Assembly: GCA_030523775.1 (NCBI GenBank)
Contig: JAUNHW010000004.1
Location: forward strand, 99,215-163,214
Direction of reading: 5' to 3'
Origin: Akkermansia sp.
GTDB taxonomy: Bacteria > Verrucomicrobiota > Verrucomicrobiia > Verrucomicrobiales > Akkermansiaceae
Length of the DNA: 64,000 bases
Shown here: positions 5,041 to 26,957 of the stretch, in pieces
Position numbering within the stretch: the stretch's first letter is position 1
Layout of the letters: every line of letters starts with the position of its first letter
The notes under the pieces: generated by a model
What the model was told of the DNA's origin: nothing
Database searches by the model: none
What the model saw: only the letters and a program-made list of their open reading frames with translations
Translations under genes and position numbers: made by a program

Positions 5041-5085
5041 CACGGCATGTATGGGGTGGCGCAAGCTTCTGCTTTCCAAGGTATC

Positions 5086-5739
5086 ATGCCGGCGGTTTTC
5101 CTTATAGAGTTTACCGGTGTGGTGGCAGCGGTGTGCTTTCAGCGCCCTGTGCGGAGCTTTGCGGGCAAGATGGTGTTCGGTGCGCTATGCGCGCCGCTGC
5201 TGTCGTACGGCTGCCTGGCGGCGGGCGTCTCCTCGCTCCCGGCGCATGCCCTTCTGGTGCTGGTGCTCGGCTTGTGCGTGAGCAAGTGCGGGTGGCGCCG
5301 CACGGTGCTATCCCTGGGCTGTTGGGCGTTTGTAACCTACATGCTGTTAATGGCCTTGCGCGTGCCGCTGCAACCCGGCGCCCCCATGCAGAACGCGGCG
5401 GGGTGTCTGCTGCCGCCGGTGGTGTTTCCCTGCGTGCTGGCGCTGTTGTTGAGCGTGCATAAAAGCCCCGTGCGTTTCTGGAGTGCGTTCGTGGGCGTGT
5501 TTCTGGTGCTCTATGTGATGCAGGTGGTGGGTGCGGCGGAGCTCGAGCACTCTGCGGACATCTGGGAGACGCACAAACTCCTTCTGGTGCGCGAAGTGGT
5601 GTTCGGCGTAATGGAGCTGGCCCTGCTGTGCGTGATGTTCATCCATGTCCTGCAGGCCCCGCCCCGGCGCGCGCTGTGGGTACTGGCCCTGTATTCCCTG
5701 CGCACGGTGTTCGTGGTGTACATGATGCTTGCGCGCTGA
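5086..5739 (+). CDS. hypothetical multi-pass membrane protein
   Basis: 217 residues from the ATG at 5086, which has AAGG about seven bases upstream; 13 further codons would be added if the ATG at 5047 were used. Most of the length is hydrophobic and can be read as six or seven membrane helices, for example 'HALLVLVLGLCVSK', 'FVTYMLLMAL', 'VVFPCVLALLL' and 'FVGVFLVLYVMQVV', with short basic loops and a basic end. I do not recognise the family. It is expressed divergently from rpmH and has its own promoter. Confidence 0.6.
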   Translation: MPAVFLIEFTGVVAAVCFQRPVRSFAGKMVFGALCAPLLSYGCLAAGVSSLPAHALLVLVLGLCVSKCGWRRTVLSLGCWAFVTYMLLMALRVPLQPGAPMQNAAGCLLPPVVFPCVLALLLSVHKSPVRFWSAFVGVFLVLYVMQVVGAAELEHSADIWETHKLLLVREVVFGVMELALLCVMFIHVLQAPPRRALWVLALYSLRTVFVVYMMLAR

Positions 5740-9949: not shown

Positions 9950-12088
9950 TTACTGGGCGGATTCCGGGGTGACGGGCGTGCCGTCCTCCAGCTCCGCCAG
10001 GTTGGTGGTGATGACCTGCATGCCGGGCTCCAGTCCCTGGCAGACGGCTGTGGCGCCGTCCTCCGTGGAGCCGCCGGTGATGATGTTCACCTTTCTGGCG
10101 TGCCCGTTCTCCGCCACGTACACGTACTTGCCGCGCGTTTCCGTGAGCACGGCATCCGCCGGAACGGACGGCACCTTGAATTCCGGGCTGCGGCGCATTT
10201 TCACGGTCACCGTGCCGCCGGGCGTCAGGGTTTCGGCGGCGTTCGGGAAGGTGGCCCAGAAGTTGAGCGTGTCGGTGGATTCCTGGATGTGGTTGTCGCA
10301 CACGGCTATGTGCCCGGTTTCCCTGTGGGTCTGCCCGGTGGCGGTCACCAGCGTGATTTCCGCCTGCCTGGCCATGGTTCCCGCATTGCCGAAGGCGCTC
10401 AGCAGCGCGGTCTCGCTGAGCGGGAAGCGCACGTAGATGGGGCTGGTCTGCACCAGGATTGCCAGCGGCGTGCGGGAGGCTATGTACCCGCCCACTGAGA
10501 TGCGCGCGCGGCCGATGATGCCGTCCATGGGTGCCGTGATGGTGCAGCGGGAAAGGTCGTCTTCCGCCACGCGGAGACTGGCTTCCGCGGCGGATTTGAG
10601 GGCCTGGGCCTCCGCCAGGGTGGCGCGGGCGCTCTCCATCTCGTCCTTGCTGGAGGCGTTGCTCTTCAGGAGAAGCTGCTGGCGCTCGTACTTGAGCCGG
10701 GCATCATGGATGCTCACATCCAGCTGGGCGATGGCGGACTTGCGCACGTTCACCGCGGCCTGGTAGTGGGTGGGATCGATTCTGAACAGGGTGTCACCCT
10801 TGTGGACGCGCTGTCCTTCCTCAAAGGGCATGTCCTTGAGAAGCCCCTGCACCAGCGGGGTGATGAGCACCTTGTTGATGGCTTCCACCTGGGCTCCGGC
10901 CACGCTGATTTCCGTGGGGTCCTCGATAAGTTTCACCTCGGCGGTCTTCACGGGCACCGCCTCCCCGGCCACCTGGCCGGAGGCGCTTTCCTTGCGCTCC
11001 ACCTTCTGGTCCGGGTATACCGGGACGACCTTGGCCCCCACGCGTGTCTTGTGGGAGCCGTCCGTAATCACGGTTTCGCCCTCCTGCACGCCGTCGTAGA
11101 TGGCCTGGTAGCGGCCCTGCACGGTACCGGCCACCACCTCCTTGCGGGAGACGGTGTCCTCTGCATCCACGGTGTAGACGTAGGAGCCGCCTGCATCATG
11201 GTGCACGGCGGTGAGCGGCACCATCACCACCTCTGCGGTGTCGCGCAGCTTCACATACACGGAGCTGATGCCGGAGGGCAGGAGCGTGTGCTCCCGGTTG
11301 GCGAATTCCGCCCACAGGGTGTAGGTGTCGGATCCGCCGGTGAGCAGGTTGTCCACAATCTTCACCTTGCCGGGGGCACCGTACTGCAGCCCGGCGGCGG
11401 TCAGGATGCGCACATCCGCCAGCTCGCCGATTTTGTTAGGGCCGTGGAAGATGGCGTTCACATCATGCTGGCTGAGCGGGAAGCGCACGTAGATGGGATC
11501 CGCCTGGTTGATGACGGCCAGCTCCTCCGCGGGGGTCACGTAGTTGCCGGGGGAGATGAGCAGGCGGCCTATGTAGCCGGTGATTTCCGCGCGGATGGTG
11601 CAGTCATCCAGGTCCTTGCGGGCGCGCACCAGTTCCGCCTCTGCGCCCACCTTCATGGCCTTGCTGGTGGCCAGGGCTGCCATGGCGGTCTCGTACGCCT
11701 CCTGGCTGGCGGCCTGGTTGTTGGCCAGGTTGGAAAGGCGCTTCACGCGCTTCTCCGCGTACACAATCTTGGCATCCAGCTCCGCTATGGCGGCCTCAGC
11801 CTTCTGCACCGCCGCCTCATAGCGCAGCGGGTCGATGCGCATCAGCACATCCCCCTTCTTCACAAAGTTGCCCTCCTTGTAGCGCACTTCCACGAGGTAG
11901 CCCTCCACTGCGCTGTGGATGCCCACGGAATCAATGGCCTCCGTGAGCCCTATGCTCTTGCGGATGATGCGGTCCTGCCCCTTGGTGGCCTTTTCCACCT
12001 GCACGCGCGGTGTGCTTCCGCCCGGCATCTGGGCCAGCGCCACACCGCCCAGCAGTACCGCCGCCGCCAATGCTTTCATGGTCTTCAT
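9950..12088 (-). CDS. tandem-fused double RND periplasmic adaptor protein
   Basis: 712 residues, about twice the usual 370-400. After a signal peptide ('[20 protein letters not shown]') two complete adaptor modules follow. Module 1 (about 25-365) has the lipoyl half '[20 protein letters not shown]', a coiled-coil hairpin, the second lipoyl half '[20 protein letters not shown]', and the beta-barrel and membrane-proximal domains. Module 2 (about 375-712) repeats it: '[17 protein letters not shown]', '[20 protein letters not shown]', 'IYVRFPLSE'. Both contain 'PIYVRFPLS', evidence of an internal duplication. RND adaptors work as six subunits around a pump trimer, so three fused copies would supply six modules. 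There is no N-terminal lipobox. Confidence 0.93.
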
Positions 12089-20277: not shown

Positions 20278-21915
20278 ATGAGCGCGTTCCCCCCGCAGGG
20301 CAAGTACATTATCGGCAACGAAGCCTGCGAGCGCTTCAGCTTCTACGGCATGCGCAGCATCCTCACGCTGTACATGACCAGCATGCTGGCCATGACCCAG
20401 CAGGAGGCCGTGGAGGTGGGGCACCTGTTCCTGGCCATCATCTACATCCTGCCGCTGCTCGGCGCGTGGATAGCGGACCGCTTCCTGGGGCGCTACCGCA
20501 CCATCCTGTACATCTCCGTGGTGTACTGCATGGGCAACTTCATCCTGGCGTGCTCGGACTTTGCGGACAGCATCGACACGCGGCGCATCATCCTCTTCAT
20601 CGGCCTGTTCACCATAGCGGTGGGCACGGGCGGCATCAAACCCTGCGTCTCCGCCTTCATCGGCGACCAGGTGCAGGACCAGACGGATTCCAAAATCATG
20701 GCGCGCGTGTACGCGGCGTTCTACTGGTCCATCAACCTGGGCTCGTTCTTTGCCTTCCTGGTGATACCGTGGATCAGGCAGAGCATGGGGTACAGCTGGG
20801 CGTTTGCGGTACCCGGCGTGTTCATGGCCATAGCCACGTTCCTGCTGTGGTGCGGGCGCAAGACGTACCACCACCGCCAGCCCACGCAGCCGCACTTCCT
20901 GCCCTGCCTGTTCACGCGTGTGTTCAAGGGAGCCAAGGCGGCATGCGAGAAGTTCGGAGCCGCCGTGGTGCAAGAAACCTCCCGCTCGGTGCTGGGCATT
21001 CTTTCGTTCATTGTGCTGGCACCCGTGCTGGTGCTGCTGGCATACTGGGCCAGGGAGGGCGCCACGCAGCTGGGCATGCTCTGCGGGCTTAGCGAGACCG
21101 TTGCCGCGCTCTGCGGCCTGGCGGCCATCATCCTGTACATCATCGCCATTGTGGTGGCGGGGCTGCGCCTGGCGGCCGCCACGGGTGCGCGCGGCTTCAT
21201 CGGCGTGTCCGGCAGCCTGCTCTTCAACCCCGCGGAAACCACCGCCGCCCGCTACACGGAGGAGGAAATCCACGGTGCGCGCAACATGGTGCGCGTGCTC
21301 ATCGTATTCCTCATGATTATCCCCTTCTGGAGCCTGTACGACCAGACCACCACCAGCTGGGTGCTGCAGGGCGACAAGATGCAGGCGCTGCAGTTCTCGA
21401 TGTTCGGGCAGGATTTCAAGTTCGGCGCGGAGGAGATGCAGAGCTTCAACCCGCTGCTCATCATGATCATGGTGCCGCTGGTCACGCTGTTCGTCTACCC
21501 GTACATCGGGCGGTGGAGCCAACCGCTGCGCCGCATGGGCTGCGGCATCGTGCTGGCAGGCATCGGCTACGGCGTGGTGGCGTGGATTCAAACCCGCCTC
21601 GATGCCGGCGAGAACCTTTCCATCCTCTGGCAGTGCCTGCCCTACCTCATCATCACCATCTCTGAAATCCTCGTCAGCACCACCGGCCTGGAATACGCCT
21701 ACACCGCCGCCGGAAAGAACATGAAGAGCATCGTGCTGAGTTTCTTCTACCTCACCAGCACCATCGGCAACTGCCTCATTGTCTACTTCACCTCCATGGT
21801 GGACGACCCCGCCTCCGTACACACCTTCCTGCTGTACGGCGCCCTGGCCGTCTGCATCGGCATTGTCTTCATGTGCGTCACCTTCCGCGAGAAATTCAAG
21901 GCGGAGGCGGAGTGA
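20278..21915 (+). CDS. POT/PTR family proton-dependent oligopeptide transporter
   Basis: 545 residues, inner membrane, MFS fold. The family signature near the N-terminus 'ACERFSFYGMRSILTLYMT' (E-x-x-E-R-F-x-Y-Y-G form) and 'FTIAVGTGGIKPCVSAFIGD' identify it. About 14 helices can be counted, two more than the MFS core, as is usual in bacterial POTs. It imports di- and tripeptides with protons. The central loop 'VLQGDKMQALQFSMFGQDFK' is longer than in compact members. Followed by a GC-rich inverted repeat and then the small-RNA array. Confidence 0.93.
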   Translation: MSAFPPQGKYIIGNEACERFSFYGMRSILTLYMTSMLAMTQQEAVEVGHLFLAIIYILPLLGAWIADRFLGRYRTILYISVVYCMGNFILACSDFADSIDTRRIILFIGLFTIAVGTGGIKPCVSAFIGDQVQDQTDSKIMARVYAAFYWSINLGSFFAFLVIPWIRQSMGYSWAFAVPGVFMAIATFLLWCGRKTYHHRQPTQPHFLPCLFTRVFKGAKAACEKFGAAVVQETSRSVLGILSFIVLAPVLVLLAYWAREGATQLGMLCGLSETVAALCGLAAIILYIIAIVVAGLRLAAATGARGFIGVSGSLLFNPAETTAARYTEEEIHGARNMVRVLIVFLMIIPFWSLYDQTTTSWVLQGDKMQALQFSMFGQDFKFGAEEMQSFNPLLIMIMVPLVTLFVYPYIGRWSQPLRRMGCGIVLAGIGYGVVAWIQTRLDAGENLSILWQCLPYLIITISEILVSTTGLEYAYTAAGKNMKSIVLSFFYLTSTIGNCLIVYFTSMVDDPASVHTFLLYGALAVCIGIVFMCVTFREKFKAEAE

Positions 21916-22171: not shown

Positions 22172-22426
22172 ATGCTCAAATCGTGCGCGTTTTTCTGTTG
22201 CCTCTCCGTTGTCGCGTGAGCGTTTGGTTGACCCGCACCGAAGGTGCGCTATATTACGGTGGGCAAATGGACCGCTGATTGTTGCGAGGTCTTGCTGGAA
22301 CACGGAGCCGATGTCAATGCCAAGGATGATGACGGCGAGACGGCCCTGGATCTTGCAACCGGGAATGGGGATTCTGCCTGCTGCAGGGTGTTGCTCTCAC
22401 ACGGCGCATGCGCCAAGGCACCCTAG
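22172..22426 (+). pseudogene. remnant of an exported ankyrin-repeat protein
   Basis: A possible signal-peptide start ('MLKSCAFFCCLSVVA', from 22172) meets a stop at 22217-22219. In another frame, from about 22271, two ankyrin repeats remain: '[20 protein letters not shown]' then '[20 protein letters not shown]'. The [16 protein letters not shown] and VLLxHGA patterns are diagnostic of ankyrins. The frame change and the lack of more repeats suggest a broken or shortened gene. A TTGACC/TATATT promoter-like pair (16-base spacer) lies at 22229-22255, so a small ankyrin peptide starting at a GTG near 22244 or 22259 is not excluded. Confidence 0.5.
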
Positions 22427-22462: not shown

Positions 22463-22566
22463 TTGACTCGGTTCGTGTACGGTGGTAGATTGCGCTCATC
22501 GGGGCGACTCGCTGCATTGGATAACGCCAAAGTTAGTGGCTATTGCGGCGGGTTGCCCCTTCTTTT
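22463..22566 (+). ncRNA. array small RNA A, copy 1
   Basis: Promoter TTGACT (22463-22468), 17 bases, TAGATT (22486-22491). Predicted RNA from about 22498 to 22566. It folds as one 15-base-pair closing helix (22501-22515 with 22545-22559, including G-U pairs) around an internal TTGG/CCAA hairpin, then TTCTTTT (22560-22566) as terminator. No open frame is conserved in it. Promoter to gene body is repeated exactly at 23218-23420. Confidence 0.75.
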
Positions 22567-22674
22567 GAAGATTGGGGCTTGCGAAATGGTTGGGGTGTGG
22601 TATGGTGGTGGCGTGAAGAAGGGAGGCAAGAGGAAGCTGCATGTGCGACCCGCAGAGTTTGCGGTGGCGGCGCG
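22472..22674. repeat. 203-base perfect duplication, copy 1
   Basis: Identical base for base to 23218-23420. It contains the -10 box and body of RNA A, the second promoter, and the first 21 codons of the small protein gene. Confidence 0.95.
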
Positions 22675-22825
22675 GAAGCACGGAACGCATGGCTGGCGGC
22701 TAGGAGAAAGGCTCAGCGTTGCCTTGCATGCCCCCTGGGATGCTAGCCATCCCGCCGGGGCGGCACATCACGCGCCGAAACCGGAAGAGTTGAAGGCACG
22801 AAACCAGATACAGGCTTATCCGTGA
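22613..22825 (+). CDS. small basic leaderless protein a, within RNA array
   Basis: 70 residues from a GTG at 22613. Promoter TTGCGA (22579-22584), 16 bases, TATGGT (22601-22606) lies only 6 bases before this GTG, the same leaderless layout used across the window, so the longer in-frame reading back through RNA A is rejected. It begins 'VKKGGKRKLHVRPAEFAVAA', strongly basic, then diverges from its paralogue (23359) and comes together again at the end ('HAPKPEELKARNQ' against 'HQPKLPPEMKRRND'). I recognise no family. Its charge would suit RNA or DNA binding. It could also be non-coding sequence duplicated with the RNA. Confidence 0.5.
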   Translation: MKKGGKRKLHVRPAEFAVAARKHGTHGWRLGERLSVALHAPWDASHPAGAAHHAPKPEELKARNQIQAYP

Positions 22826-22905
22826 CGCGGATGGTGATGCGTCCACCGTCGTGTGGGAGCGTGATTGCCGGTCGAAGCTGTTTTTGCTGTTGACTTGGTG
22901 GTGGG
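22825..22905. repeat. 81-base repeat after small protein a
   Basis: Matches 23589-23669 with one visible mismatch. It begins near the stop codon of the small protein gene, contains an imperfect CGGATGG/CCACCG hairpin, and runs into the next array promoter. Confidence 0.85.
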
Positions 22906-23040
22906 GTGTGGTAGATTGGCCTTCGGATGGGCGCTGTCTATCGTCAGCTTAGCTTGACTGAGTAAGGCGAGGCAGCGTCCGTTTATGTTATAGGGGTGAT
23001 TCCGAATTCATAGGAGAGGACGTCTTTGCTGCCTGTTTCT
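22890..23040 (+). ncRNA. array small RNA B, copy 1
   Basis: Promoter TTGACT (22890-22895), 16 bases, TAGATT (22912-22917). RNA from about 22924 to 23040. GGCAGCG at 22971-22977 can pair either with CGCTGTC at 22932-22938 or, in its first six bases, with GCTGCC at 23028-23033 just before a T-rich stretch, so two exclusive folds exist. A GTCA/TGAC hairpin (from 22943) sits in the 5' half. The second copy is at 23830. Confidence 0.72.
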
Positions 23041-23073
23041 TGGACAAGGCTCGTGATTTTTCCCGATTTGCTG

Positions 23074-23178
23074 TTGACTTGGTGGTGGGATGGTGGTAAT
23101 AGAAGCTGAGAAAGGGATGTTGAAGCCACCATCGCCAAGGTTCGACCGGCGAACTCACAGCGCTTCAGCGTCCCTTTT
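23074..23178 (+). ncRNA. array small RNA C
   Basis: Promoter TTGACT (23074-23079), 17 bases, TAATAG (23097-23102). RNA from about 23109 to 23178. A 13-base-pair closing helix (23114-23126 with 23162-23174) surrounds an inner hairpin TCGCC/GGCGA (23132-23136 with 23148-23152). TTTT at 23175-23178 ends it. Sequence is unrelated to A or B although the plan is the same. Confidence 0.72.
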
Positions 23179-23206
23179 CGTATATAGGAAGTATGCTCTG
23201 AATTTA

Positions 23207-23312
23207 TTGTCTCTCATTTCGTGTACGGTGGTAGATTGCGCTCATCGGGGCGACTCGCTGCATTGGATAACGCCAAAGTTAGTGGCTATTGCGGCGGGTT
23301 GCCCCTTCTTTT
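23207..23312 (+). ncRNA. array small RNA A, copy 2
   Basis: The RNA body is identical to copy 1: closing helix 23247-23261 with 23291-23305, then TTCTTTT (23306-23312). The duplication begins inside the spacer, so the -35 region differs: TTGTCT (23207-23212), 18 bases, TAGATT (23232-23237). Expression may be weaker than copy 1. Confidence 0.7.
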
Positions 23313-23420
23313 GAAGATTGGGGCTTGCGAAATGGTTGGGGTGTGGTATGGTGGTGGCGTGAAGAAGGGAGGCAAGAGGAAGCTGCATGTGCGACCCGCA
23401 GAGTTTGCGGTGGCGGCGCG
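23218..23420. repeat. 203-base perfect duplication, copy 2
   Basis: Identical to 22472-22674, 746 bases away. The perfect identity, including non-coding bases, suggests a recent duplication or gene conversion. Confidence 0.95.
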
Positions 23421-23574
23421 TATGCACGCTTTGGACTGGTGGAAGGAGCAGCGGCGCTGTGATTTGCGGAGCGCTTTGTTTGATTCCGCGCGGCAGATGC
23501 CCGCGCACCAGCCGAAGCTGCCGCCGGAGATGAAACGCCGCAACGATCCGCATACCTGCCGGTATTCCTGGTGA
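23359..23574 (+). CDS. small basic leaderless protein b, paralogue of protein a
   Basis: 71 residues from the GTG at 23359, with TTGCGA (23325-23330), 16 bases, TATGGT (23347-23352) just upstream. The first 21 residues are identical to protein a; the rest is different ('MHALDWWKEQRRCDLRSALF') until a similar basic end. A fixed start with a changed body could mean specificity switching, or simply decay of one copy. No known family is recognised. Confidence 0.5.
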   Translation: MKKGGKRKLHVRPAEFAVAARMHALDWWKEQRRCDLRSALFDSARQMPAHQPKLPPEMKRRNDPHTCRYSW

Positions 23575-23588
23575 ATGGCTAGTTATGC

Positions 23589-23669
23589 ACGCGGATGGTG
23601 ATGCGTCCGCCGTCGTGTGGGAGCGTGATTGCCGGTCGAAGCTGTTTTTGCTGTTGACTTGGTGGTGGG
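23589..23669. repeat. 81-base repeat after small protein b
   Basis: Second copy of 22825-22905, again lying between a small protein gene and the next array promoter. Confidence 0.85.
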
Positions 23670-23754
23670 GAGGTGGTAGGTTGTTCATGCAACAGGCCAC
23701 CTATTGCCGGGCGCCCCGCTCTTTGAGCGCGGTCCGGAGGGTGGCCACTTTTTT
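23654..23754 (+). ncRNA. array small RNA D
   Basis: Promoter TTGACT (23654-23659), 17 bases, TAGGTT (23677-23682). RNA from about 23689 to 23754. Nested helices GGCCACC/GGTGGCC (23695-23701 with 23740-23746) and CGCTC/GAGCG (23717-23721 with 23725-23729), then six T (23749-23754), a strong terminator. Confidence 0.75.
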
Positions 23755-23829
23755 ACCCTGGTTTCTTGCAGCACAGGTAATGGATGATGGGTTCCATGCT
23801 TTTTTTCCATGCCTTTTTCGCTTTTGCTG

Positions 23830-23979
23830 TTGACTTGGTGGTGGGGTGTGGTAGATTGGCCTTCGGATGGGCGCTGTCTATCGTCAGCTTAGCTTGACTG
23901 AGTAAGGCGAGGCAGCGTCCGTTCATGTTATAGGGGTGATTCCGAATTCTAGGAGAGGATGTCTTTGCTGCCTTTTTTC
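23830..23979 (+). ncRNA. array small RNA B, copy 2
   Basis: Promoter TTGACT (23830-23835), 16 bases, TAGATT (23852-23857). RNA from about 23864. It differs from copy 1 by a few substitutions and one deleted base. The change GGAC to GGAT in the lower helix keeps pairing through a G-U, and the terminator is stronger: GCTGCC (23967-23972) followed by six T. The alternative pairing of 23872-23878 with 23911-23917 is kept. Confidence 0.75.
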
Positions 23980-24013
23980 TTGGGCATGGCTCGTGATTTT
24001 TCCCGATTTGCTG

Positions 24014-24146
24014 TTGACTTGGCGGTGTGGTGTGGTAGCATTTCCTTGGTCTCCGTTTCTGTTCCTGCGGGGCATCGCTCAAGGGGGCAGATAGGGGGGA
24101 GGTGCGGGATGTCCACCGTATGCTCCTGGTATTAACCTTCCTTTTT
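24014..24146 (+). ncRNA. array small RNA E
   Basis: Promoter TTGACT (24014-24019), 16 bases, TAGCAT (24036-24041). RNA from about 24048. A helix GGGGCAT/ATGCTCC (24069-24075 with 24120-24126) is visible and a T-run follows at 24142-24146, but the terminator stem (GGT/ACC) is weak. The least certain RNA of the set. Confidence 0.55.
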
Positions 24147-24155
24147 GTCTTGCTG

Positions 24156-24271
24156 TTGACTCGGTAGTGAGGTTGTGGTATGCTCGCGCTTGTCGGCGTT
24201 CTGGCGATTCGTTCGCCTTTCCCGCAAGGGAAGTTTAACCCGATAGGCGCTTCTACGGAGGCGCCTTTTTT
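24156..24271 (+). ncRNA. array small RNA F
   Basis: Promoter TTGACT (24156-24161), 17 bases, TATGCT (24179-24184). RNA from about 24191. Three hairpins in a row: GGCGA/TCGCC (24203-24217), TTCCC-GCAA-GGGAA with a GNRA loop (24219-24232), and terminator GGCGCTTC/GAGGCGCC (24246-24265) followed by six T. Confidence 0.75.
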
Positions 24272-24303
24272 ATTCCAACCCCATTTTGCTGGGGTTGAGG
24301 GTA
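24272..24303. repeat. copy of the 3' end of the flavin oxidase gene
   Basis: These bases match 24775-24806, the last codons of the minus-strand GlcD-like gene, with about one mismatch. Both carry an AACCCC/GGGGTT hairpin. It is a displaced gene end inside the array, a likely footprint of recombination. Confidence 0.6.
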
Positions 24304-24370
24304 TGGCGGGGGCTAGGCCAATGGCTCTGGAGGTGCTTACGCGGCGGCTCTGACTATTTTGATTTTGGAG

Positions 24371-24514
24371 TTGACTTGGCGTTCTGGTGTGGTAGATTGA
24401 AGTTCCTGACGGCACCTTGCGTTGGCGGAACCGAAAAGCCATAGCGAGTAAATTGGGCACGAACGCCGTGTTACCCGTCATGACACCCCCGTTCCTGACG
24501 GGGGCTTCTTTTTT
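24371..24514 (+). ncRNA. array small RNA G
   Basis: Promoter TTGACT (24371-24376), 16 bases, TAGATT (24393-24398). RNA from about 24405 to 24514. A closing helix TGACGG/CCGTCA (24407-24412 with 24475-24480) and then a separate terminator CCCCCG/CGGGGG (24486-24491 with 24499-24504) with a T-run at 24509-24514. Confidence 0.75.
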
Positions 24515-24527
24515 GGGGCTTTTGGTG

Positions 24528-24627
24528 TTGACTTGGTCGCTGGATGTGGTATGTTGAGCTTCAGGAACGCCCGGCGCCATATAGGGGACTTAGTTTGCCC
24601 CAGTGCTGCTGGGCGTTCCTGTCTTTT
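24528..24627 (+). ncRNA. array small RNA H
   Basis: Promoter TTGACT (24528-24533), 16 bases, TATGTT (24550-24555). RNA from about 24562. A perfect 11-base-pair closing helix, CAGGAACGCCC (24562-24572) with 24611-24621, encloses a GGGG/CCCC hairpin; TCTTTT follows. Last member of the array. Confidence 0.75.
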
Positions 24628-24721
24628 GCAGGTAGAAGCAATGCAGGTGCGGCTCCTTTCGTTCCTTGAACATGCACACGGTGATGCGGGCTTCGATGGG
24701 CAGACCCTTCTCGTTGTCCAC
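24590..24721 (-). pseudogene. possible gene fragment opposite RNA H
   Basis: One minus-strand frame between RNA H and the flavin oxidase gene reads like protein: 'LWAFTAPVDNEKGLPIEARI' then 'TVCMFKERKEPHLHCFYLQK', stopping at 24590. It has no ATG; a GTG at 24721 is the only near start, and the frame is open back to the oxidase stop. It may be the tail of a lost gene. I do not recognise it and it could be chance. Confidence 0.25.
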
Positions 24722-24772: not shown

Positions 24773-26155
<1,383 letters not shown>

Positions 26156-26165
26156 GGGAAGAGAA

Positions 26166-26957
26166 TCAATCCTTGCCTGTACCCCAGCGGCGGTGCAGCC
26201 AGTGCTCCGCGGGGGAGAAGATAATCTTGTCCGCCAGCAGGCCGATGGCGATGATGATGAACATGATGCCGATGACCTGGTACATGCGCTGCAGCTCACG
26301 CCCGTAGTGCAGGTACTGGCCGATGCCGAAGCCGGAGACCACGGAGACGTAGATTTCCGCGGCCATGAGCGAGCGCCACGCGAAGGCCCAGCCCTGCTTC
26401 ATGCCGCTCACCACGAAGGGCGCGGAGGCCGGCAGGGTGACGTGCACCAGCGTGTACAGCTTGCCCGCGCCCATGGTGCGGGCGGCGCGCGCGTAGATGG
26501 GCGGCACGTTCTTCATGCCGTTCTCCGTGGAGAGCAGCACGCTCCACAGCGTGCCCATAATCACCACGAACAGCAGCGCCGCCTCCGTCTGCCCGAACCA
26601 GATGCACGCCAGCGGCACCCAGCACACGCTCGGCAGCGCCTGCAAGCCCAGCGCCAGCATGCCCAGCGTGTCGTTCACGCACTTGAAGCGCGCGGCCAGC
26701 ATGCCCAGCGGCACGCCCAGCGCCAGGCCGATGACGTACCCGATGAGCAGGCGCCGCAGCGTGATGACCATGGAGAGCGGTATCTTGCCGTTGGCCATGT
26801 TTTCCCACAGGTAGCGGCCCACGGTGCTGGGCGGCGGCAGCACGAAGGGTGACCACAGGCTCTCCTCTAGCCCGATGCACGCCAAATCCCCCGTGAGCGC
26901 GGCCCACACGAGGATGAGGAAGGCGAAGAACGAGACGATGATGGTGAAGCGTTTCAT
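26166..26957 (-). CDS. ABC importer permease, SsuC/TauC/NrtB family
   Basis: 263 residues with six membrane helices. N-terminal 'VLPPPSTVGRYLWENMANGK' is the typical opening of the nitrate/sulfonate/taurine/pyrimidine permease family, and 'TMGAGKLYTLVHVTLPASAP' followed by 'SGMKQGWAFAWRSLMAAEIY' contains the EAA loop that contacts the ATPase. It follows the ATPase gene by 10 bases. Confidence 0.93.
   Translation of the reverse strand: MKRFTIIVSFFAFLILVWAALTGDLACIGLEESLWSPFVLPPPSTVGRYLWENMANGKIPLSMVITLRRLLIGYVIGLALGVPLGMLAARFKCVNDTLGMLALGLQALPSVCWVPLACIWFGQTEAALLFVVIMGTLWSVLLSTENGMKNVPPIYARAARTMGAGKLYTLVHVTLPASAPFVVSGMKQGWAFAWRSLMAAEIYVSVVSGFGIGQYLHYGRELQRMYQVIGIMFIIIAIGLLADKIIFSPAEHWLHRRWGTGKD

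Follow-up and report, generated by a model that had tools for sequence, protein, structure and literature searches.

A 64 kb stretch of DNA (the window) from a 2.33 Mb Akkermansia genome (G000) contains a tandem array in which ten promoters precede eight kinds of RNA-like segment (units A to H), with A and B each present twice. We conclude that the array is probably a bank of orphan RNA antitoxin genes directed against virion-borne toxins, with transcription of the units and neutralisation of the toxins predicted from sequence. Members of the RNA family of unit G are immediate neighbours of predicted RNase-toxin genes in Mu-like prophages, and we therefore read the array as a likely set of stored RNA antidotes that would defend the cell from toxins delivered by phages; the remaining units are predicted to act against other toxins. 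The original prediction for this DNA had described a small-RNA locus and proposed regulators, decoys or parts of a defence or ribonucleoprotein system. That list contains the toxin-neutralising reading, although the link to toxins was not seen.

Scattered G-like copies were identified by DNA search of 76 genomes of the genus together with a pattern search, and one was found on a viral contig (L114). The alignment of sixteen copies (A1) has a consensus of a closing helix, two inner hairpins and a terminator, with no short tandem repeats evident. Across these 16 relatives, 19 of 28 pairs have changed on both sides. Pairing holds in 94.4% of cells, versus 79.3% in shuffles, and falls to 35-48% when the partners are slid; none of 500 shuffles reaches any of the five covariation measures. 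Helix covariation across homologues had been set beforehand as a test on which the small-RNA claim could fail, and it is present for G, the kind with enough relatives. The orphan G copies are as intact in structure as the toxin-linked ones (160 of 168 pairs formed in six orphan copies, 208 of 222 in eight toxin-linked copies).

A covariance model of G (R1), to which seven toxin loci supplied RNA, gave 43 matches in 23 of the 76 genomes. Fifteen of these matches abut a toxin gene, recognised by profile in 11 cases, by Pfam in L179 and by eye in L337, L319 and L324; the remaining 28 were inspected in part. Among 239 genomes from the order, R1 matched 16, comprising 15 Akkermansia and one member of another family. 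The genome from outside the Akkermansiaceae encodes two tandem copies, with no toxin recognised in the 8 kb of DNA that contains them.

The G-like RNA of L114 abuts the end of a Portal_Mu gene that has an extended C-terminal tail; the two are on opposite strands and converge, and the RNAs of L128, L131, L132, L135 and L136 are placed in the same way. Portal_Mu has 46 matches in 30 of the 76 genomes, and 43 loci were oriented and read (all but G024:C55, one of two in G066:C30, and G041:C156). The Portal_Mu body is common to these loci and the long C-terminal tails differ from one another; even P0026 and P0033, whose bodies are nearly identical, have different terminal domains. The portal of L114 matched three loci in viral contigs, including its own contig, and one record among annotated phages, in the portal part only; one PBECR2 and one PBECR3 tail had no match among annotated phages.

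When tested against Pfam as 190-residue ends, five tails were above the cut-off for PBECR2 (L184, L205, L191, L199 and L210) and one for PBECR3 (L182), domains of a group of predicted phage RNases described in part of PMC5512222. Just below the cut-off were L190 (PBECR2) and L206 (PBECR3), and the L198 tail is LPD3-like, also below cut-off. L179 encodes PBECR1 as a separate gene after a short portal. Two tails look peptidase-like (L189, weakly by Pfam; L188, by a motif seen by eye). The tails paired with G-like RNAs (G-type tails) and those of L195, L197 and L192 have no meaningful Pfam match; the G-type domain models as a RelE-like fold, and the best structural alignments of the model are to RelE-type and contact-dependent inhibition (CDI) entries, with modest Z. 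A toxin-like open reading frame (ORF) in L337 (4695-5102; G033:C29) is not fused to a portal in its own frame and is convergent with a G-type RNA (about 5078-5201). This ORF, like the gene after the portal in L142, has no Pfam match.

The pairing of G-type toxin and RNA is consistent. A profile built from seven G-type toxin tails (A2) gave 12 matches in 10 of the 76 genomes (six of the 12 loci had supplied toxin to it), and a convergent R1 RNA is present at all 12, at distances of -7 to 103 nt measured from where the profile match ends. The weakest R1 match among them, in L297, scores 23.7 bits, and L299, L303 and L304, which supplied neither RNA to R1 nor toxin to A2, are still paired. All 10 toxin genomes are among the 23 with an R1 RNA (Fisher p 1.2e-6). 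A2 has no match in the window's genome, where PBECR families were not searched, nor in G051, G052 and G053. The single Portal_Mu gene of the window's genome (L185) lacks a long tail. Unrelated RNAs occupy the same position behind the PBECR2 tails (L184, L205, L191, L199, L210) and the PBECR3 tail (L182), and an RNA of G/I type lies behind the PBECR1 gene of L179.

On the opposite strand 3' of tailed portals we identified a sigma-70-type promoter, a structured stretch and a terminator reaching or overlapping the toxin stop codon. The promoter was scored at 35 loci (the 43, minus three duplicates and five running into a contig end). An antisense promoter score of at least 8.5 was found after 14 of 17 nuclease-type or unassigned long tails and after 0 of 18 other portals (Fisher p 2.9e-7, only a guide because the groups and the cut-off were set by eye). 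The 17/18 split was made after reading the tails and the downstream DNA, and the score and cut-off are our own. The three long tails below 8.5 are L201, L202 and L205. No antisense promoter follows the peptidase-like tails of L188 and L189, and on the sense strand 0 of the 35 portals reach 8.5.

RNA similarity correlates with similarity of the toxin tails over 20 loci, with the RNA taken outside the coding sequence (Mantel r 0.73, p 0.0001). For this set the RNA starts were placed by hand and the sequences were trimmed at the stop codon; L198 was excluded because its RNA part was shorter than 60 nt, and L202 and L128 were not entered. At the 14 loci with a full portal, the correlation is 0.53 (p 0.0009) for the toxin versus -0.08 (p 0.75) for the portal body. 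Thus, the RNA stays with its toxin tail across differing phage bodies.

An all-against-all comparison of the RNAs connects the orphan units with the toxin-linked RNAs. Window unit G groups with the toxin-linked RNAs of G-type tails, and a unit named I, found in G052 and G053, groups with those of L201 and L192. An orphan in G048 groups with the RNAs of the PBECR2 tails L184, L205 and L210, and stands in tandem with a relative of window unit B. A G051 orphan behind an array-like promoter (L287) groups with the RNA of the PBECR2-like tail L190. G049 and G060 have tandem arrays of such units a few kb from a portal-toxin gene, and one unit of the G049 array is of the same RNA type as the RNA adjoining this nearby toxin gene. 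In total, orphan units related to toxin-linked RNAs occur in G048, G049, G051, G052, G053 and G060, and these sequence relationships indicate that orphan units and toxin-linked RNAs are one population. A row of immunity-like genes without the cognate toxin is what we find for G in the window and for I in G052 and G053. No toxin-linked relative of A, C, D, E, F, H or J (a further unit of G053) was found in this comparison, and a toxin partner was not found for seven of the eight window kinds (all but G). Conversely, the toxin-linked RNAs of L182, L195, L198, L206 and L191 with L199 have no orphan relative in it. Searching the DNA of the 76 genomes unit by unit (B together with C, E together with F, and D and H singly) revealed no additional toxin-linked relative; unit A was searched solely as part of the whole array, with three candidates per genome scored. 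The unit D pattern matched 0 viral contigs.

We infer that the RNAs are transcribed, that the tails are toxic and delivered by virions, that binding of RNA to protein neutralises them, and that orphan copies may protect their host. Each RNA would be transcribed on its own and then fold, and would bind its cognate BECR-fold RNase domain so that cellular RNA is not cut. A lysogen would need the RNA to survive the toxin of its own prophage, and possession of the RNA alone, with no prophage, would protect a cell into which a virion introduces the portal-toxin fusion. Prophages would be the source of the units, which would remain next to each other once the toxin is lost, like the protein immunity genes in type VI secretion arrays.

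The same observations can be read in other ways. The RNAs could be antisense regulators of the toxin messenger, similar to type I systems, that pair with the 3' end of the transcript and block it, with the orphans as leftovers. The RNA genes are indeed convergent with the toxin genes, with terminators at or across the stop codon, and in L135 and L205 the RNA core overlaps the coding sequence. In most G-type loci, however, the conserved core is outside the coding region; furthermore, the structure covaries over 16 copies, six orphans included, and rows of orphans with strong promoters occur in genomes without a G-type toxin match. We consider antisense regulation unlikely. We assign a similarly low probability to the units being phage morons or regulatory small RNAs unrelated to the toxin, for which the position after the portal would be a tolerated insertion site. 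RNA I is found in the corresponding position in viral contigs L141 and L142, next to a portal that lacks a tail, and A, C, D, E, F and H are without a known toxin partner, as this explanation would allow. It does not account for the absence of an antisense promoter after all 18 portals without a nuclease-type tail, peptidase-like ones included, or for the way in which the kind of RNA follows the toxin domain.

The window array could, alternatively, be a decaying remnant of prophage material, kept by recombination between repeated promoters and without present function. The repeated A and B, the lost -35 element of the second A, the remnant of an ankyrin-repeat gene and the duplicated end of an oxidase gene indicate active rearrangement. 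Yet nine of the ten promoters retain the exact consensus, the orphan G copies are paired as well as the toxin-linked copies, and arrays recur in other species, with a tandem pair in another family; a functionless remnant is thus quite improbable. A bank of RNA antidotes remains our preferred explanation of the array.

The array lies between a peptide-transporter-like gene and a flavin adenine dinucleotide (FAD)-oxidase-like gene, with all promoters on the plus strand (Table 1). Nine are perfect matches to TTGACT-N12-15-TGGTA, and the variant at 23207 has TTGTCT as its -35 element. A search of both strands of the window with this pattern returned these nine promoters as its sole matches, versus a mean of 0.02 and a maximum of 1 in 100 shuffles of the window. 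All nine coordinates given in the original prediction are exact, and its variant was correctly placed. In the whole genome the pattern has, with up to three mismatches, 81 matches, versus 41 for a reversed control pattern. Array-like promoters thus occur elsewhere in the genome, which suggests a strong promoter of general use and not a signal reserved for the array.

Table 1. Features of the array and its flanks (window coordinates; fold z, RNA folding relative to shuffles; nt, nucleotides; aa, amino acids)
Feature	Position	Strand	Details
Peptide-transporter-like gene, left flank	20278-21915	+	Named by eye from translation
Unit A, copy 1	22463-22568	+	Promoter 22463-22492; RNA ~22498-22568; closing helix 22501-22559; T-run; fold z -4.6
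Short ORF after A copy 1	22613-22825	+	70 aa, GTG start; 3' half alternative to that of copy-2 ORF
Unit B, copy 1	22890-23046	+	Promoter 22890; RNA ~22919-23046; weak fold, z -1.4; relative in G048 beside PBECR2-type RNA
Unit C	23074-23182	+	Promoter 23074; RNA ~23104-23178; fold z -4.0; relative in G051 (L101)
Unit A, copy 2	23207-23314	+	Variant -35 (TTGTCT)
Short ORF after A copy 2	23359-23574	+	71 aa, GTG start; 7 protein-database relatives
Unit D	23654-23756	+	Promoter 23654; RNA ~23684-23754; fold z -3.3; relatives in G052, G053 and G051; fragment in G036
Unit B, copy 2	23830-23990	+	By repeat comparison and promoter match
Unit E	24014-24140	+	Promoter 24014; RNA ~24043-24140; weak fold, z -1.2; relative in G066 (L138)
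Unit F	24156-24276	+	Promoter 24156; RNA ~24184-24272; fold z -3.2; relative in G053
41-nt copy of FAD-oxidase gene end	24272-24312	.	After unit F
Unit G	24371-24517	+	Promoter 24371; RNA 24394-24517; model R1 123.8 bits; fold z -2.2; kind tied to phage toxins
Unit H	24528-24632	+	Promoter 24528; RNA ~24557-24630; fold z -4.3; relative in G053 (L106)
FAD-oxidase-like gene, right flank	24773-26299	-	Named by eye from translation

The double occurrence of A and B was borne out by sequence comparison (216 nt at 98% identity for the A copies, 128 nt at 99% for the B copies). Clear helices had been claimed for seven of the eight segments; six kinds fold at z -2 or lower, but B and E are indistinguishable from shuffles. 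An Rfam scan of the array returned no family at the cut-off, with DUF805b (E 0.11) as the sole match below threshold, and Y RNA, tRNA-like and other known RNA families were set aside on this result. Transposable repeats were set aside because the units have promoters in common rather than ends, and riboswitches or leader RNAs because the units close with their own T-runs and do not precede genes (with the exception of A, which is followed by an ORF). The only short repeat in the array, 13 nt in 2.1 copies (23792-23818), is outside the RNA cores.

The two ORFs that follow the A copies share their first 20 or so residues and then diverge, and one further relative is encoded in G051 (L089). The copy-2 ORF has no Pfam match, tested as a longer frame, and no PADLOC match. 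With seven relatives among database proteins, this ORF indicates that some protein-coding signal is present in the array, so the earlier statement that there is none was not quite right. The end of the FAD-oxidase gene is duplicated (24272-24312 versus 24775-24815; 41 nt, 90% identity) with G and H between the copies, as if insertions had occurred one after another at the 3' end of the gene. The remnant of an ankyrin-repeat gene is present at about 22249-22426; the gene looks whole, by eye, in G052 (L010, about 10720-11220).

The nearest named relatives of the window's genome are Akkermansia sp. metagenome-assembled genomes from the guts of horse and other animals. In two close relatives the same site has arrays of different composition (D, an I unit, G and an H-like unit in G052, L010; D, I, F, G and J in G053, L011), and in a third, G051, an AbiEii gene (L009, 10081-10920) replaces the array. 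Thus, the site is variable and has a known defence gene in one relative. The expectation that related strains would have the shared promoter with varying bodies at this locus holds in G052 and G053, where other sets of units stand behind like promoters. Elsewhere in G051 (G051:C71; L101, 1480-1645), D and C lie back to back with one promoter and one terminator, so two RNAs are apparently able to share one transcript. A D-like fragment in G036 (G036:C5; L139, 12534-12568) is located just after a CRISPR-like array with cas genes upstream, as judged by eye. A further orphan unit in G053 (G053:C102; L288, about 3817; L113) has the array promoter and a terminator that abuts the end of a chromosomal gene.

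The closest functional parallels are type III toxin-antitoxin systems (ToxIN, CptIN, TenpIN) and AbiF-RCd22, in which a structured non-coding RNA neutralises a protein toxin by binding it, as we predict here. ToxN-type toxins of type III systems have a Kid/MazF-like fold. Of the tails here, some are PBECR1, PBECR2 or PBECR3 by Pfam, and the G-type domain comes nearest, at modest Z, to RelE-type and CDI entries. According to passages of PMC12373285, the RNA of type III and AbiF systems precedes the toxin gene and has short tandem repeats, and in type III it is co-transcribed with the toxin; for AbiF, action of the RNA in cis and in trans is reported there. In contrast, the RNA here comes after the toxin in convergent orientation, under a promoter of its own, and lacks such repeats; at 12 of 12 G-type loci it is 3' of the toxin gene on the other strand, contrary to the type III layout. 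A further difference is that the predicted toxin is a BECR-type domain carried by a virion protein. Because tandem repeats and an RNA-first, co-transcribed layout are absent, we do not class the system as type III, although by analogy it likely works like one. AvcID is a further case of an RNA antitoxin with a toxin other than a ToxN-type nuclease (PMC10511110). Its toxin is a deaminase and is not phage-structural, and no orphan bank is evident in that account.

Rows of immunity genes without their own toxin are found in the type VI orphan immunity arrays of Vibrio cholerae, where, in the account given in part of PMC5361080, the orphan genes resemble those paired with toxins in other strains. 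Those are protein genes, whereas here the immunity genes are predicted RNAs and the toxins are on phage portals. MuF polymorphic toxins of temperate phages and PBECR fusions are likewise phage structural proteins with exchangeable C-terminal toxin domains, and fusions of PBECR to MuF and portal proteins are described in passages of PMC5512222 and PMC5576092. For 89.4% of 191 muf toxin genes, immunity is assigned to a small protein ORF after the toxin (PMC5576092, in part); here, an RNA gene adjoins the toxin, by position, at 12 of 12 G-type loci. RNA immunity is unmentioned in the relevant passages of these two papers, and we found no work in the open-access literature on noncoding RNA as immunity to MuF or prophage toxins. 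RNA antitoxins and orphan immunity banks are each known; a paper that joins the two was not found in the open-access literature.

On balance, we lean towards a wider picture in which virion-borne RNase toxins are the weapons in conflicts involving Akkermansia and its Mu-like phages, and RNA rather than protein neutralises them. Each toxin domain would have one antidote family, and hosts and prophages would keep many antidotes in tandem promoter-RNA-terminator arrays, as a nucleic-acid immune repertoire against proteins that phages deliver. The RNA-toxin pairs are short and self-contained, and the claim is thus directly testable. The unrelated RNA folds, if each does block a BECR-type RNase, would be useful for studies of RNA-protein recognition. 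If the antidote reading is true, immunity to a polymorphic toxin can be an RNA, and would escape surveys of immunity genes that are based on proteins.

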